58,994 nucleotides of DNA from Chlorobiota bacterium (GTDB lineage Bacteria; Bacteroidota; Ignavibacteria; OLB7), in assembly GCA_028287785.1 (NCBI GenBank), contig JAQBOZ010000026.1:1-58994 (forward strand), written 5' to 3'. Both the position numbers and the translations under genes were made by a program. Every line of letters starts with the position of its first letter. Position 1 is the stretch's first letter. This document shows, piece after piece, positions 10,535 to 16,446 of this stretch. The notes beneath the pieces were generated by a model. That model was not told the origin of the DNA, did no database searches, and saw nothing but the letters and a program-made list of their open reading frames with translations.

Positions 10535-11029
10535 TCAGATCGGCTTGAAGCCCTCGAAGGACTGGCGGCAGGAATTGCAGTAGTGGATGGAACGGCAGAG
10601 CGTGGGGCCGAACGGCGATTGAAGCACCGTGCTGTGGCTTCCGCAGAATGGACATGGCGTATTGTTCAGCACTTCCAGCTCCAGCACGCCCTCGTACGGC
10701 GCGGGGGGGGCAAGCCCATGCTGCAACAGGCGTTTCCTCCCCTCCTCGGTCACCCGGTTGCTGTTCCACTGCACATCGAAATCGATCTGTACATCCACAT
10801 CGGCAAAGCCCATCTCCCCAACCCGTCGCCGGACATCATCGCGCATGTAGTCGATCGCGGGACAGCCGGTGAAGGTGGGAGTCATCGAGATATGCGCCAC
10901 ATTATCGGGCGAGATGGAGATGTTCGTGATCACGCCGAGATCGACCAGGGAGATTGTAGGTATCTCCGGGTCCATCACGCCGCGAAGCGCCTCGCGAATA
11001 TCGTCGACGGTGGGCATCGGCTTCACCAC
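10535..11029 (-). CDS. paaD: phenylacetyl-CoA epoxidase assembly protein PaaD
   Basis: This 164-residue protein has a MIP18/DUF59 domain (residues about 8-95, with DPEIPTISLVDLGVI and TPTFTGCPAIDYM). A C-terminal Cys-rich module follows (CPFC at about 126-129, then C and YCNSC). It is thought to help load or maintain the metal centres of the PaaABCE monooxygenase and is needed for its activity. The frame starts with GTG at 11029 and overlaps the end of paaC by 7 bp; an ATG four codons in is an alternative. Last gene of the paaABCD run in this window. Confidence 0.93.
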   Translation of the reverse strand: MVKPMPTVDDIREALRGVMDPEIPTISLVDLGVITNISISPDNVAHISMTPTFTGCPAIDYMRDDVRRRVGEMGFADVDVQIDFDVQWNSNRVTEEGRKRLLQHGLAPPAPYEGVLELEVLNNTPCPFCGSHSTVLQSPFGPTLCRSIHYCNSCRQSFEGFKPI

Positions 11030-11784
11030 TCCGCCGATGGATCGATGCGGAAGACCTCCGTCATCTCATCGAGAAGGGGTTTCAGATGCTCGGTATGATA
11101 GCCCTTTCTTCCGCCGTACGCCGGCGTGACGGCATCGAGCGACGGAAGAATCAGCGTTCCCTTTTCCAGCGTGACGGCGATCGTCTCCAGCCACTTCCCC
11201 CGCAACGCCGCCTCGCCGGGGAAAATCCCCTCGGCCGCCAGCTCCGTCTCGTAATCCGACGGCTCGAAGATGCCGAGCGCGAGCGGGAAGACCTCGTTCA
11301 ATGCCGACTGCATGCGGGCGTGACTCTCCTCGCTTCCGCGGGCGCCAAGCTGCGCTATCCAGGTGTTGGCGTGGAAGAGATGATACTTGATCTCCCCCTT
11401 GATCTTGGTTGCCAGGCGCGCGAGCGGCTCGAAGCTGGAGCGCTCCAGCATCTCGTAGCGGAGAAGCTCGGCGGTATCGTGGAGGAAATGGCGCATCAGG
11501 CTGAAATCGTAGCCGCCGATGGGATACTCCACAAGCTGGCAGCAGCGGAACTCCCCCTCGCTCCGCCCGAAGGCTACTGCATCGGGCTCGGCGCCGCCGA
11601 GCGATTCGAGAATCCTGTAGAGCCCGAGGCTGTGTCCCAGCTTGTCCTGCGCGATCGATGAGAAGGCGATATCCTCCTCCATGATCGGCCCAAGCCCCGT
11701 CCATTCGGAATTCCGATGGGCGATGATCAGCTCGTCATCGGCCATGCGGAGGAGAAGATCGCGTAATGCCGCCGTATCGTTCAT
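11023..11784 (-). CDS. paaC: phenylacetyl-CoA epoxidase subunit PaaC
   Basis: This 253-residue ferritin-like protein is the structural partner of PaaA in the ring 1,2-phenylacetyl-CoA epoxidase. Diagnostic segments are DELIIAHRNSEWTGLGPIME at the N-terminus, IAQDKLGHSLGLYRIL, IKGEIKYHLFHANTW and AYGGRKGYHTEHL near the end. The ATG overlaps the paaB stop by 4 bp and paaD overlaps its 3' end, which indicates tight coupling. Length is normal for the family. Confidence 0.95.
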   Translation of the reverse strand: MNDTAALRDLLLRMADDELIIAHRNSEWTGLGPIMEEDIAFSSIAQDKLGHSLGLYRILESLGGAEPDAVAFGRSEGEFRCCQLVEYPIGGYDFSLMRHFLHDTAELLRYEMLERSSFEPLARLATKIKGEIKYHLFHANTWIAQLGARGSEESHARMQSALNEVFPLALGIFEPSDYETELAAEGIFPGEAALRGKWLETIAVTLEKGTLILPSLDAVTPAYGGRKGYHTEHLKPLLDEMTEVFRIDPSAEW

Positions 11785-12167
11785 GGTTCAGTCGTGTTTT
11801 GCCGTTTGTATGCCGTGATCTTTCCACCAACGCGATATCCCTTCGCCTCGCGATAATCCTTCTCCGGCGTCGTGGCGAAGATGTCGGCATCCTCCACGCT
11901 GATCACCGAGATATCCTCAGTGCGAACCACCCAGATGCTGACGGTGCGGGAGCGCCGGCCGTACTGCTCCTTGGCCCAGAGGAGAGCGATCTCCGGGTTG
12001 GGGGCGTGAAGCGATCCGACATGGACCGGATGATCGCCACGGGTTTCCAGATGGAACACCTCGTAGGATTCCAGTTGATCCAGCGGCGGAATCGGCGCCA
12101 TCTCGGTTTCATTCTCCTGCGGGATCGCCGCGCGCGTCACGCGCGGGTCGAGCGACTGTATTGTCAT
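11781..12167 (-). CDS. paaB: phenylacetyl-CoA epoxidase subunit PaaB
   Basis: This 128-residue small subunit of the phenylacetyl-CoA epoxidase carries the typical YEVFHLETRGDHPVHVGSLH and EIALLWAKEQYGRRSRTVSI segments and the SVEDADIFATTPEKDYR end. The frame is open further upstream, through a repeat-containing intergenic region. I chose the ATG at 12167 because AGGAAG lies about ten bases before it. The N-terminus is about 20 residues longer than in many homologues, so the internal ATG of MAPIPPLDQ is an alternative start. A 214-bp gap with hairpins separates it from paaA. Confidence 0.93.
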   Translation of the reverse strand: MTIQSLDPRVTRAAIPQENETEMAPIPPLDQLESYEVFHLETRGDHPVHVGSLHAPNPEIALLWAKEQYGRRSRTVSIWVVRTEDISVISVEDADIFATTPEKDYREAKGYRVGGKITAYKRQNTTEP

Positions 12168-12235
12168 GCTTTGAGGCTTCCTAAAAGCTCTTAACAGAAT
12201 GGGCAGTTGGCCCGTTAAAGAGGCCCTTCCAGGGC

Positions 12236-12334
12236 ATATCGTCAAGCTCTCCAACGGACTGTTGAACAACGTCATCCGCCACGCCGGGATGAATGCGACC
12301 GAAGGATCTCCCACCCATGCGCCGGAGATCCTTC
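12236..12334. other. paaA-paaB intergenic hairpins with partial R1 repeat
   Basis: An 11-bp perfect inverted repeat, GAAGGATCTCC (12301-12311) and GGAGATCCTTC (12324-12334), lies in the middle of the gap. Beside it is a partial R1 end, AACGGACTGTTGAACAACGTC, near 12253. Both would be transcribed between paaA and paaB. They could attenuate or process the message and so set subunit ratios; that is inference. Confidence 0.6.
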
Positions 12335-12381
12335 GCGATTATCCGCGCTCCGGCGATATCCGGAGCCGGTGGAGACGTCAG

Positions 12382-13368
12382 TTACGAGAGCGGCGTCACA
12401 TATTTCATATCCGGCTTGCGGAGCGCCTCGCGGACCCAGCGTCCCTGCTCCTCGGCCATGCGGCGGACGGCGAGACGTTCCCTGTTGCAGGGGCCATCGC
12501 CGTTGATCACCCGCTTGAACTCCGCCCAGTCGGGATCGGAGAACTCCCAGACGCCGGTTTCCGGGTTCTTCCGGAGGTTCGGGTCGGGAACGGTAAGGCC
12601 CAGATCCCAGATCTTCGGGACATATGCGTTCAGGAACTCCTGCCGCATCTCGTCGTTGGAGGCCATCTTCACCTTCCACCGGGTCAGCTTTTCGGTGTGG
12701 ACGGAGACGGTATCGGGCGGGCCGTGGAAGTGCATGATCGGCTTCCACCAGCGGTTGAGCGCCTCCTGCACCATCTCCCGCTGCTTCGGCGTGCCGGTGG
12801 CGAGCGTCACCACGTTATCGTAGCCATACTTCAGATGGAACGATTCTTCCTGGCAGATCCGCTCCAGCGCGCGACAGTAGGGGCCATACGATCCCTTCGA
12901 GTTCGCCACCTGGTTGATGATGGCGCCGGCATCGATCAGCCACGCGATCACCGCGGTATCAGCCCATGTCTCGGCCGGATAGTTGAAGACGTTGGAGTAC
13001 TTGGATTTGCCGCTGATAAGATCGGCGATCATATCCTCGCGCGATTTTCCGAGCGTCTCGGCCGCGCTGTAGAGAAGCTGGCCGTGCCCGATCTCATCCT
13101 GCACCTTCGCGATCAGCGCCATCTTCCTGCGGAAGCCCGGCGCCCGCGTGATCCAGGTCCCCTCCGGCAGCGCGCCGATGATCTCCGAATGCGCGTGCTG
13201 CTCGATCATCCTGATAAGCTGGCGACGATATTCGCGAGGCATCCAGTCGTGCGGCTCGATCTTTTCGCCACGAGCGATCCGCGCCTCGAACTCGGCCAGC
13301 AGCTCCGGATCGTCCACCTGGTTGGGGTCGAGCGGCTGGGCGTCGATGACAGAGAGGTTTCCGTACAT
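12382..13368 (-). CDS. paaA: phenylacetyl-CoA epoxidase catalytic subunit PaaA
   Basis: This 328-residue di-iron oxygenase subunit converts phenylacetyl-CoA to its 1,2-epoxide together with PaaC, PaaB and an electron-transfer subunit. Iron-ligand motifs are visible as [12 protein letters not shown] (ExxH) and [11 protein letters not shown] (ExxxH). The conserved [20 protein letters not shown] and [21 protein letters not shown] segments are also present. It heads the minus-strand order paaA-paaB-paaC-paaD. No paaE reductase, paaK ligase or other paa gene is present in the window, so the enzyme must borrow a reductase or be completed elsewhere. Confidence 0.96.
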
Positions 13369-13548: not shown

Positions 13549-14520
13549 CTACCTTCTGATGCACGCCCGGAACCCCGCCGCCAGCGCCCCGCGGTCCAGC
13601 CCCCTGCCGATCATCACCAGCAGATTCTCCCGCTCCCCATCGCCCCACGGCCTTCCATACTCCCAGTTCGACAGCGCGTGAACTGCCTGGAAGAGATAAC
13701 GCCGTGGCTGCCCCGGCAGATTGAGTATCGCCTTCACGCGATAGAGATTCTCGTGGTCCCGCTCCAGCAGCCCCGCAATCCACGCATCGAACGCGGTTCC
13801 ATCGATCTCCCCGCTTACGCTGATGCTCACCGAATCGATCCCAGCATGATGGTGATGATCTCCCGCGGTGGCCGCATCACCGGCCGCGACCGCCATCCGC
13901 TGAAGATCGAATCCCCCCAGGTCGAGGATCTCCATCGGATCGATCGCGGCGTGCCGCGTCCGCTCGATTCTCGCGGTCGGGTTGATGGCGCGTATCGCCG
14001 ATGAAAGCCGCGTCAGATCGCTCTCGCCGGCCAGATCGGTCTTGTTGAGGAGGATGAGATCGGCATAGGCCAGCTGCGCTGATGCCTCGGAGCCATCATC
14101 GAGATGCCGGCCCAGGTTGACAGCGTCGGCAACGGCCACCACGCCATCAAGCTGGAAGGTTTCGCCGGCATCGGCATGCGTCAGAAATGTCATGATGATC
14201 GAACCGGGCTCCGCCAGGCCGCTCGTTTCCACGACGATATGATCGAACGAAGCGCGACGCTCCATCAGCTCCTCCACCGCGTCGATCATATCGTCGCGGA
14301 CGGTGCAGCAGATGCAGCCGTTGGTCATCGTGTAGACGTTTTCCTCGACATTGAGGAGCAGATGATGGTCGATGCCGATCTCGCCGAACTCATTGACGAT
14401 CACAGCCAGCCGCAGCCCGTGATCGCCGCTGAGGAGATGGTTGAGGAGCGTGGTTTTTCCGGCGCCCAGATAGCCGGTCAGGATCGTGATCGGGGTTGGC
14501 CCGGATGAATGGTAGCTCAC
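13549..14520 (-). CDS. CobW/COG0523-family GTPase (metal chaperone)
   Basis: This 323-residue GTPase has Walker A GYLGAGKTTLLNHLL, the metal-binding CxCC motif in NGCICCTVRDDM, Walker B-like VETSGLAEP and the base-recognition NKTD. A CobW C-terminal domain follows. A His-rich linker (HHHH, about residue 205) separates the two halves. COG0523 proteins hand zinc, cobalt or other metals to client enzymes using GTP; the His cluster suggests zinc or nickel binding. The start is GTG at 14520 and overlaps the stop of the Cys-cluster protein gene by 4 bp, so the two are coupled. It precedes paaA by 180 bp on the same strand. A role in metal supply to a paa enzyme is possible but unproven. Confidence 0.92.
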   Translation of the reverse strand: MSYHSSGPTPITILTGYLGAGKTTLLNHLLSGDHGLRLAVIVNEFGEIGIDHHLLLNVEENVYTMTNGCICCTVRDDMIDAVEELMERRASFDHIVVETSGLAEPGSIIMTFLTHADAGETFQLDGVVAVADAVNLGRHLDDGSEASAQLAYADLILLNKTDLAGESDLTRLSSAIRAINPTARIERTRHAAIDPMEILDLGGFDLQRMAVAAGDAATAGDHHHHAGIDSVSISVSGEIDGTAFDAWIAGLLERDHENLYRVKAILNLPGQPRRYLFQAVHALSNWEYGRPWGDGERENLLVMIGRGLDRGALAAGFRACIRR

Positions 14521-14921
14521 CTCCCCCGGGCTCCCTCAGGAAAGGTGATCTGGATCAGCGGGACCACGTCCGGGTTCTCCTGCTGGCGGCGCTCAAACTG
14601 AAGCGTGTCGTAATAGACGCAGCGTCCGCCGCCGTGGGTGGGCCATTCGCGGCAGACCTCCGGCCGACCCTCGTAGATGGAACAGAGCCGTTTCACGGGG
14701 TCCTGAAAGATGCACGATTCCCCGAAGATCGGGTCGGGGGTTCTTCGGAGCACGCGCTCGCCGCTTGCGTGCTTTTTGGTATATCTCCGCCGTGCCGCCT
14801 CCGGCAAAATGCCGAAATGATTTCCGAGACGGATGATATCATCCTCCGACACCTGAACCCGCTCGTAGATCGCGCAGCAATAGCCGACACAATTCAGACA
14901 GTCATATTTGATTTTAGCCAT
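14517..14921 (-). CDS. YkgJ-family cysteine cluster protein
   Basis: This 134-residue protein has conserved cysteines in DCLNCVGYCCAIY near the start, then GESCIFQD, RLCSIYEGRPEVCREWP and GGRCVYYDT. This is the pattern of the CxxCxxxCC zinc/iron chelating family (YkgJ, UPF0153). These proteins are thought to bind a metal or FeS cluster, and their role is not settled. The frame is open 12 codons further, but ATG 14921 (MAKIKYDCLNC) is the natural start. It overlaps the CobW GTPase gene by 4 bp. Confidence 0.85.
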   Translation of the reverse strand: MAKIKYDCLNCVGYCCAIYERVQVSEDDIIRLGNHFGILPEAARRRYTKKHASGERVLRRTPDPIFGESCIFQDPVKRLCSIYEGRPEVCREWPTHGGGRCVYYDTLQFERRQQENPDVVPLIQITFPEGARGR

Positions 14922-14956: not shown

Positions 14957-15925
14957 CTATGTCAGCGCGGAATGAATATTGAAGAGGCTGTAAAGGATAT
15001 ATGTGGACAGGAGCACGTAGAACGAATAATGATCCAGCTTTTTCGCGAATGATTCGCGGCCGCTTTTATAGAGAAACAGCGAAACAACCGATATCACCAC
15101 CGTCAGGAGAATATAAATAAATGTGACCAGATGAATTTTATCCACCAGCGTGAATGTCACCGATGACGGCAGGATGGAATCGACGATATATTTATTTCCG
15201 ACGGTGGCAAATATCGCGCCGACCGGGAGGCCGAATCTGGGATCGACATCGACGGGATCGATGAAGAAGACCATGATGGCGATAACGAACGCCACGTAGA
15301 CGCCCGTGAAGAGCTTGAAGAAAAGGCCCAGCCCGTCGCGCTTCAGCTTGATCGTGGCGATCACGGCCGGATAGGTGCTGCTGGTCCCGAGCGACGGATC
15401 GCCGTAGGTGGTCTGGTAGCGACTCAATTGCGAGGTGACATGAAAGCTTGAGATTTTCCAGCCGTTCAGCTTCACCGATGAATCGATTTTCGTGTTGTTG
15501 ATATCGGCCACATAGACAAGGCTGCTGGTATCGTGCGTCGCATCCTCGATCACGATTTTCAATGTCTGCTCATCGAAGGGAAAATCATTGACATCCCATC
15601 GCTGCTTGATCGTCGCCTTGCATTTCACGGTGCCCCAGTTCACCCCCATTTTCTTTTCAACATCCGGGAGCGAATAATTGTAATTCTTGGCGTTGGTGAT
15701 CTCCGCCGAGGAGAGCGGGTTCAGCGAATCGCGTGAGTAGAGAGCCCACACCCAGAAATCGCTGGCAAATGCCTCGTTCGGAAAATCGAGGTCATAAATC
15801 GAGAGGATATACATGCCGATGGTGCATGTATCCTTCCCCTTTATTTCCGGTGTCTGAGACGCTACTCCCCTCGCGCCAAGCACAAGCAGGAGCAGAACCG
15901 AGGCAACAAGCAGAGAATATTTCAT
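14957..15925 (-). CDS. prokaryotic pentameric ligand-gated ion channel homologue
   Basis: This 322-residue protein resembles bacterial members of the Cys-loop receptor superfamily. The signal peptide is MKYSLLVASVLLLLVLGARG. An extracellular beta-rich domain follows, with the hallmark WDVNDFPFDEQTLKIVIED (Cys-loop region; like other bacterial homologues it lacks the two loop cysteines). Four transmembrane helices follow: M1 LFFKLFTGVYVAFVIAIMVF, the M2 region DPRFGLPVGAIFATVGNKYI, M3 VDKIHLVTFIYILLTVVISV, and M4 HYSFYVLLSTYILYSLFNI. Length matches GLIC and ELIC. The start at 15925 was chosen for the signal peptide. Its stop lies 35 bp upstream of the Cys-cluster gene, so it may head that operon. 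The ligand and ion selectivity are unknown. Confidence 0.8.
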   Translation of the reverse strand: MKYSLLVASVLLLLVLGARGVASQTPEIKGKDTCTIGMYILSIYDLDFPNEAFASDFWVWALYSRDSLNPLSSAEITNAKNYNYSLPDVEKKMGVNWGTVKCKATIKQRWDVNDFPFDEQTLKIVIEDATHDTSSLVYVADINNTKIDSSVKLNGWKISSFHVTSQLSRYQTTYGDPSLGTSSTYPAVIATIKLKRDGLGLFFKLFTGVYVAFVIAIMVFFIDPVDVDPRFGLPVGAIFATVGNKYIVDSILPSSVTFTLVDKIHLVTFIYILLTVVISVVSLFLYKSGRESFAKKLDHYSFYVLLSTYILYSLFNIHSALT

Positions 15926-16131
15926 GGCCCGTGGATGTTCTCCAATACGGCGCGCCGGTACGACGGCCTCCATTGATCGATCGCGAAATATAATATAGAG
16001 AAGGAGTCACGATGTTCAACCGTCCGAGCGGCCGGAATGGCATTCCGGCAATACACTGATCGAATGGAACGGCGGAACCGCCGGGAGTCAACCTTTGCCA
16101 TGAAGGGCGGGTTCGCGATATTGAACGGATT

Positions 16132-16446
16132 TTGCGAGTTGCTGTCTGCCTGGAACTTGCGATCACCCCGGGCCGCGGAGACGAACCGCGGTACCGTCGG
16201 GGCCGGAACGATGTGGACCACATTGCTCCAACCTTCACCCGCGTTACGCTTCGCGCCGCCTCGCATGTTCACGCCGATATCATGGATGCCGCCGGCGGAA
16301 CCGTTCGCGTGGTGTACGATGGAAGGATGGATGCGGGAAACCGGACGATGACGATCGATGCCTCCTCCCTACCGGCCGGAAACTACTTTATCCGCATCGA
16401 GACGGGCGATGGGATCGTGGCGAAGACGCTGGTGGTGGCTCACTGA
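16132..16446 (+). pseudogene. fragment of a T9SS-sorted protein (C-terminal domain only)
   Basis: The frame ends with ASHVHADIMDAAGGTVRVVY and LPAGNYFIRIETGDGIVAKT, the typical end of a type IX secretion sorting domain. There is no signal peptide, the only upstream start is a weak TTG, and the first 50 or so residues have no recognisable domain. The likeliest explanation is the surviving 3' end of a lost secreted-protein gene. It converges with the OmpA-like gene, ending 29 bp from it. Confidence 0.6.

Follow-up and report, generated by a model that had tools for sequence, protein, structure and literature searches.

A bacterial Pro-loop receptor subunit with glycine at the M1 proline site belongs to a lineage with phenylalanine at the pore 9' position

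Background

Among the prokaryotic members of the pLGIC (Pro-loop receptor) superfamily are GLIC, which is cation-selective, and ELIC, which we take to carry proline at the kink site of helix M1 and leucine at position 9' of the pore helix M2. The described systems closest to the protein analysed here are GLIC, the proton-gated pLGIC of Gloeobacter violaceus (PDB 3EAM, 4HFB), and two further channels of solved structure, sTeLIC (PDB 6FL9) and DeCLIC (PDB 6V4A/9FTG). Two inventories, that of the ART-LGICs by Tasneem et al. 2004 (PMC549065) and that of the Pro-loop receptors by Jaiteh et al. 2016 (PMC4795631), include bacterial members. The [F/Y]PxD motif of the Pro-loop is part of the definition of the superfamily (PMC4795631); position 14' of M1 is proline in 77% of the superfamily, with glycine, at 5%, as the main alternative (PMC4795631, Table 1), and P, G and S are all tabulated at this site for bacterial members (PMC549065); position 9' of M2 is leucine in 75% of the superfamily and phenylalanine in 13%, phenylalanine thus being a known minority state (PMC4795631). 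The M1 proline has been said to occur in all pLGICs, and the replacement of Pro-203 of GLIC with glycine yields a non-responsive protein in which the current is abolished, alanine and leucine at this position being likewise silent (PMC4813548).

Here we describe a pLGIC subunit gene in the window, that is, the whole stretch of DNA analysed, 58,994 nucleotides of contig JAQBOZ010000026.1 from a Chlorobiota bacterium (GCA_028287785.1; Bacteroidota, Ignavibacteria), the product of which combines glycine at the M1 site with phenylalanine at 9'.

Results and discussion

The 322-residue product of the open reading frame (Table 1; hereinafter the channel protein) is identified as a pLGIC subunit by profile matches, predicted fold and signature residues. 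The NCBIfam profile LGIC_1 matched it with E = 2e-15, well under the cut-off of that profile, and PF02931, the ligand-binding domain of neurotransmitter-gated channels, matched residues 109-196 with E = 1.1e-5, at 25.5 bits versus a gathering cut-off of 26. The top matches in a phmmer search of PDB sequences were pLGICs, the best of them an acetylcholine receptor (3e-7), and the profile of the family described here matched GLIC along the whole chain, from the ectodomain through M1-M4, at ~1e-20. Matches of this strength far exceed what chance would give. The ligand-gated channel identity proposed in the initial annotation was thus borne out, and so were the details it had read from the sequence, namely, a signal-peptide-like N-terminus, FPFDEQ at the position of the loop, and four helices.

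Table 1. Positions of the channel gene, its encoded features and its neighbours in the window
Feature	Position	Strand	Residues and motifs	Basis
pLGIC (Pro-loop receptor) subunit gene	14957..15925	-	CDS 15925 to 14957, 322 aa + stop	profiles, AF2 model, structure matches
Signal peptide	15854..15925	-	1-24, MKYSLLVASVLLLLVLGARGVASQ	translation; AF2 helix 2-21, then low-confidence linker 23-29
Periplasmic ligand-binding beta-sandwich	15338..15832	-	32-196	AF2 strands; PF02931 match 109-196
Pro-loop, Cys-less	15566..15583	-	115-120, FPFDEQ	sequence; P116 and D118 invariant in homologue alignment A3
Extended loop C	15365..15421	-	169-187, lineage motif Y-x-T-x-[FY]-G-D-P...[YF]	alignment and conservation
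M1 helix	15263..15334	-	198-221	AF2 secondary structure
Gly208 codon, M1 14' (kink proline site of GLIC and DeCLIC)	15302..15304	-	208	HMMER alignments to both
M2 pore helix	15173..15247	-	227-251: R0' G2' G6' F9' G13' N14' K15' Y16' D19' S20'	homologue alignment
M3 helix	15065..15148	-	260-287, beginning T-L-V-D at 259-262	AF2 model
M4 helix	14963..15055	-	291-321	AF2 model
Promoter-like site upstream of the channel gene	15990..16019	-	TTGAAC, TATATT/TATTAT	consensus scan only, 9/12 matches
YkgJ-like CxxCxxCC Cys-cluster gene, 35 bp downstream of the channel gene	14517..14921	-		PF03692, E = 3e-11
CobW-type GTPase gene, 4 bp overlap with the ykgJ stop	13549..14520	-		PF02492, E = 5e-56; PF07683

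The AlphaFold2 (AF2) single-chain model of the channel protein, for which the alignment was built from loci without plasmid-derived rows, has a mean pLDDT of 90 and consists of the expected beta-sandwich followed by four helices, with an M3-M4 link of ~3 residues and no intracellular domain. When this model was compared with the PDB using Foldseek, 1107 matches were obtained at E <= 1e-3, with GLIC in the lead (4.6e-19, TM 0.75-0.78), and VIA-align gave Z scores of 25.4 for GluCl, 24.8 for GLIC and ~25 for GABA-A, the first two over ~282-286 residues. The beta-sandwich plus four-helix arrangement anticipated in the initial annotation is therefore also predicted by modelling. As for its designation 'Cys-loop-type', the superfamily assignment stands but the label is loose: in the alignment to an acetylcholine receptor there is no cysteine at either residue 108 or residue 122, so that the cysteine pair around the loop that defines the eukaryotic Cys-loop receptors in the strict sense is absent, and 'Pro-loop receptor' is the better name. 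The lack of these cysteines is generally the state of the prokaryotic members.

The Pro-loop of the channel protein reads F115-P116-F117-D118, in agreement with the [F/Y]PxD motif, and the residues W156 in beta9, R196 before M1, P253 between M2 and M3, and R230 at M2 0' match those tabulated by Jaiteh et al. (PMC4795631, Table 1). Two superfamily positions deviate, namely, M1 14', which is Gly208 instead of proline, and M2 9', which is Phe239 instead of leucine, being aligned by HMMER with the leucine of sTeLIC and DeCLIC. Since glycine is the main alternative at M1 14' (PMC4795631), Gly208 is compatible with membership in the superfamily. In the ligand-binding domain, the canonical tryptophan of loop B is replaced with Ala129 in a pairwise alignment to an acetylcholine receptor, so the classical aromatic cage is incomplete. 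Within or close to the canonical binding loops, the lineage conserves W60, E127, D141, Y170, T172, G175 and D176; judging by the acids among them (E127, D141, D176), a cationic or polar ligand appears somewhat more likely. A metal, a proton or an amine had been named as possible ligands in the initial annotation, expressly as speculation.

With GLIC, the channel protein shares, despite only 17-18% identity, the Cys-less Pro-loop, the absence of an intracellular domain, the pre-M1 arginine, the M2-M3 proline and an acid at -2'; the differences are the proline at the M1 site of GLIC, its isoleucine at 9', its F14'/N15' in place of N14'/K15', and a loop C that is ~10 residues shorter. Mutations of 14' and 15' in GLIC change the action of ethanol and propofol, as stated in the titles of the PDB entries matched by Foldseek; in the channel protein, these positions are asparagine and lysine. 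In a direct sequence search, the nearest transmembrane domains of solved structure were those of sTeLIC (E = 0.005) and DeCLIC (E = 0.3), both of which resemble the channel protein in the LP...T-x-x-D signature at the M2-M3 junction and the start of M3, and the former also in R0'. However, both have leucine at 9' and an acid (Asp/Glu) at 2', where the channel protein has phenylalanine and glycine, and DeCLIC, in addition, has proline at the M1 site and a large extra N-terminal domain. The eukaryotic receptors GluCl, GABA-A, GlyR and nAChR have the same fold and the FPFD loop but differ in possessing the disulphide, the intracellular domain, the loop-B tryptophan and the M1 proline.

A scan of contigs with one sequence detected two relatives only, whereas profile searches of genomes recovered many more, with homologues in 28 of the 395 genomes of the window's phylum, 33 of the 294 of its class and 39 of the 398 of a second phylum, which is Pseudomonadota because it includes a Thiotrichaceae genome. 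Further homologues, either labelled 'hypothetical protein' or left unannotated, are encoded on plasmids of Azospirillum and linear plasmids of Streptomyces; no homologue was found in the phage collection searched. The channel protein is 58% identical to its same-genus homologue and 28-53% identical to those found elsewhere, in three phyla. As the lineage to which the channel protein belongs is largely without annotation and scores at or below the Pfam cut-off, bacterial homologues of neurotransmitter receptors are probably under-counted.

Within the homologue set, which combines the two phyla and the plasmid matches, 54 of the 86 aligned sequences have phenylalanine at 9' and 32 have another residue. 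The M1 site is proline in 31 of these 32, as against 3 of the 54 Phe-9' members, in which it is otherwise glycine (42), serine (6), alanine (2) or threonine (1). The two groups are split by one branch with an SH-aLRT support of 99 after removal of the trait columns, in a quick tree of the 86 sequences that contains long branches and carries SH-aLRT support without bootstrap. The Phe-9' group is further characterized by a preference for glycine at 2' and 6', Gly/Ala at 13', Asn/Ser at 14', Lys/Gln at 15' and tyrosine at 16', and by a longer loop C with the motif Y-x-T-x-[FY]-G-D. The channel protein, with its glycine and phenylalanine, accordingly lies outside the group with M1 proline and an aliphatic 9' residue that includes GLIC, sTeLIC and DeCLIC. 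M2 is the best conserved segment of the lineage, with a mean entropy of 1.50 bits versus 2.23 for the ectodomain, as expected of a working pore; one member with a doubtful Phe-9' alignment and a very long branch (L042) was excluded from these conservation counts and kept among the 54 and in the tree.

Glycine or serine at the M1 site of some bacterial members is already on record in the tables of Tasneem et al. and Jaiteh et al. and hence is not new in itself; given that phenylalanine at 9' is tabulated in both inventories as well, the Phe-9' lineage probably was sampled there. Neither inventory, in the portions available to us, sets out the joint lineage with M1 glycine, Phe 9', the glycine pore and the distinctive loop C or tests it (PMC549065, PMC4795631). 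In the openly licensed literature searched, we found no description of the combined M1, 9' and pore changes as one lineage, and neither a solved structure nor a recording of any member.

Several side observations concern the diversity of the homologues. Seven sequences (L102, L104, L106, L107, L108, L110 and the second gene of L098) form a sub-branch with a Pro-loop that has lost the aromatic residue and the aspartate and retains the proline (for instance, RVPIENH and RAPLESH), the M1 site being serine, or alanine in L108; these are candidates for degenerate or partner subunits. At L098 (G729:C53:1441-3273), two pLGIC genes, one with a normal and one with an altered Pro-loop, adjoin on opposite strands, and at L104 (G637:C24:32423-34514) a short and a long form are in tandem, so that heteromers are possible in these two genomes. 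A genome from the family to which the window belongs (G004; L006/L054) encodes a pLGIC fused to a domain resembling type-I periplasmic binding proteins (Peripla_BP_6, E = 6e-4), and in L042 (G366) and L043 (G117) the pLGIC domains are fused to dCache-like domains. These sensor-domain fusions were considered as a novelty and rejected, PBP-I and Cache fusions having been described in 2004 (PMC549065).

We propose, with a probability of roughly 0.8, that the channel protein assembles as a homopentamer into an ion channel of the inner membrane that is gated by a small ligand in the periplasm; a homomer is favoured because the window genome has a single pLGIC gene. With the beta-sandwich exported to the periplasm by the signal peptide, the ligand would bind at the subunit interface, which involves loops A, C, E and F as well as loop D with its invariant W60. 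The binding signal would then run via the Pro-loop (FPFD, from D118 to R196) and, through P253 in the M2-M3 loop, reach the M2 helices, which would open a path for ions. The predicted gate, placed by prime numbering, consists of the rings of Phe 9' and Tyr 16' above a wide lower pore lined with glycines (2', 6', 13'), and a glycine hinge in M1 would take the place of the usual proline kink. By analogy with the proposal of Tasneem et al. for bacterial members (PMC549065), the most likely role would be that of a chemosensory channel that alters ion flux when the cell meets a solute.

With regard to selectivity, the aspartate at -2' of the channel protein, compared with glutamate at -2' in GLIC, might lend a slight preference to cation permeability. 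An anion-selective channel, working by the same mechanism and hence compatible with the proposal above, is a less probable but serious possibility: position -1' is proline, next to R0', and there is no glutamate, so that the Glu-[Arg/Lys] motif of animal cation channels is lacking, although 30 of the 54 members of the lineage, the channel protein included, do have an acid at -2' (27 Asp, 3 Glu), as does cation-selective GLIC.

Given that the change of Pro-203 to glycine silences GLIC (PMC4813548), the usual mechanism of conduction cannot be assumed for the channel protein. Conceivably, the pLGIC fold could sense a periplasmic ligand with the pore closed to ions, signalling or scaffolding through its conformation, and Phe 9' with Tyr 16' could even make a permanent hydrophobic plug. 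We consider such a non-conducting receptor unlikely, as the pore helix is the very part of the family that is most conserved, the glycines at 2' and 6', the near-invariant R0' and the conserved polar residues at 14'-16' look like constraints on a pore, and the protein lacks both a cytoplasmic domain and a long M3-M4 loop that could pass a signal on.

Returning to the ligand-gated channel, we put forward tentatively, at less than even odds, that the Phe-9' lineage as a whole gates without the M1 proline, by means of a glycine hinge and a double aromatic gate (Phe 9', Tyr 16') above a glycine-lined pore. If true, the geometry of gating would differ within the superfamily, in a lineage that spans genomes of Bacteroidota type as well as those of proteobacteria and actinobacteria. 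The M1 proline has been called essential on the basis of mutagenesis in GLIC, nAChR and 5-HT3 receptors, and the lineage naturally does without it; with glycine or serine in M1 and the pore helix as its most conserved part, it makes the need for the M1 kink in gating testable on wild-type proteins.

The Cys-cluster and CobW genes that the initial annotation reported on the strand of the channel gene are confirmed by their Pfam matches, and as the three genes are 35 bp apart at one junction and overlap by 4 bp at the other, co-transcription is plausible in the window genome. The implied functional link did not hold up. In a genome of the same genus (G001), the pLGIC, YkgJ and CobW genes are on three contigs (C8, C11 and C29), as they are in that of the window's own family, G004 (C119, C111 and C137); a third genome, G002, has YkgJ and CobW and no pLGIC match; no CobW or YkgJ homologue was found within ~6-8 kb of the pLGIC gene in related loci, none of those examined having kept the arrangement. 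With the two genes dispersed in relatives, no metal function is indicated by the neighbours, the adjacency is a chance of gene order, and a joint role of the channel protein with YkgJ and CobW in sensing or supplying metal, for which the shared strand and close spacing speak, is most improbable. Across genera, no gene family that would hint at a ligand or pathway was found to recur beside the channel gene in the related loci: an amino-acid permease near three loci was rejected as a conserved partner, being just 26-27% identical between the two groups, as were the kinase/regulator pairs of L012, L060 and L061, which are generic.

Elsewhere in the window, genes for phenylacetyl-CoA epoxidase, paaA-paaB-paaC-paaD (10535-13368, minus strand), lie directly downstream of cobW, the listed PaaB frame having an N-terminal extension of ~80 residues that is perhaps a start-site artefact. 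Upstream of the channel gene and divergent from it, a short frame (16132-16446, plus strand) encodes a C-terminal Por_Secre_tail (E = 1e-6) and no cargo domain, and looks like a remnant of a gene with a type IX secretion sorting tail. Near the channel gene of the same-genus genome (L047 9859-11662, G001), there are two tandem amino-acid-kinase-like proteins that, by eye, resemble molybdenum storage protein subunits. On plasmid pAB510b of Azospirillum sp. B510 (L013, 5773-11821), a homologue is located directly upstream of genes for CheW, an MCP and an MscS-type channel, all on one strand, a setting that agrees with the earlier proposal of a function in chemotaxis. Finally, two viral proteins in BFVD, A0A7S9SUV3 (Virus NIOZ-UU159) and A0A5J6VL22 (Megaviridae sample), have a predicted pLGIC fold (Foldseek E ~1e-14).
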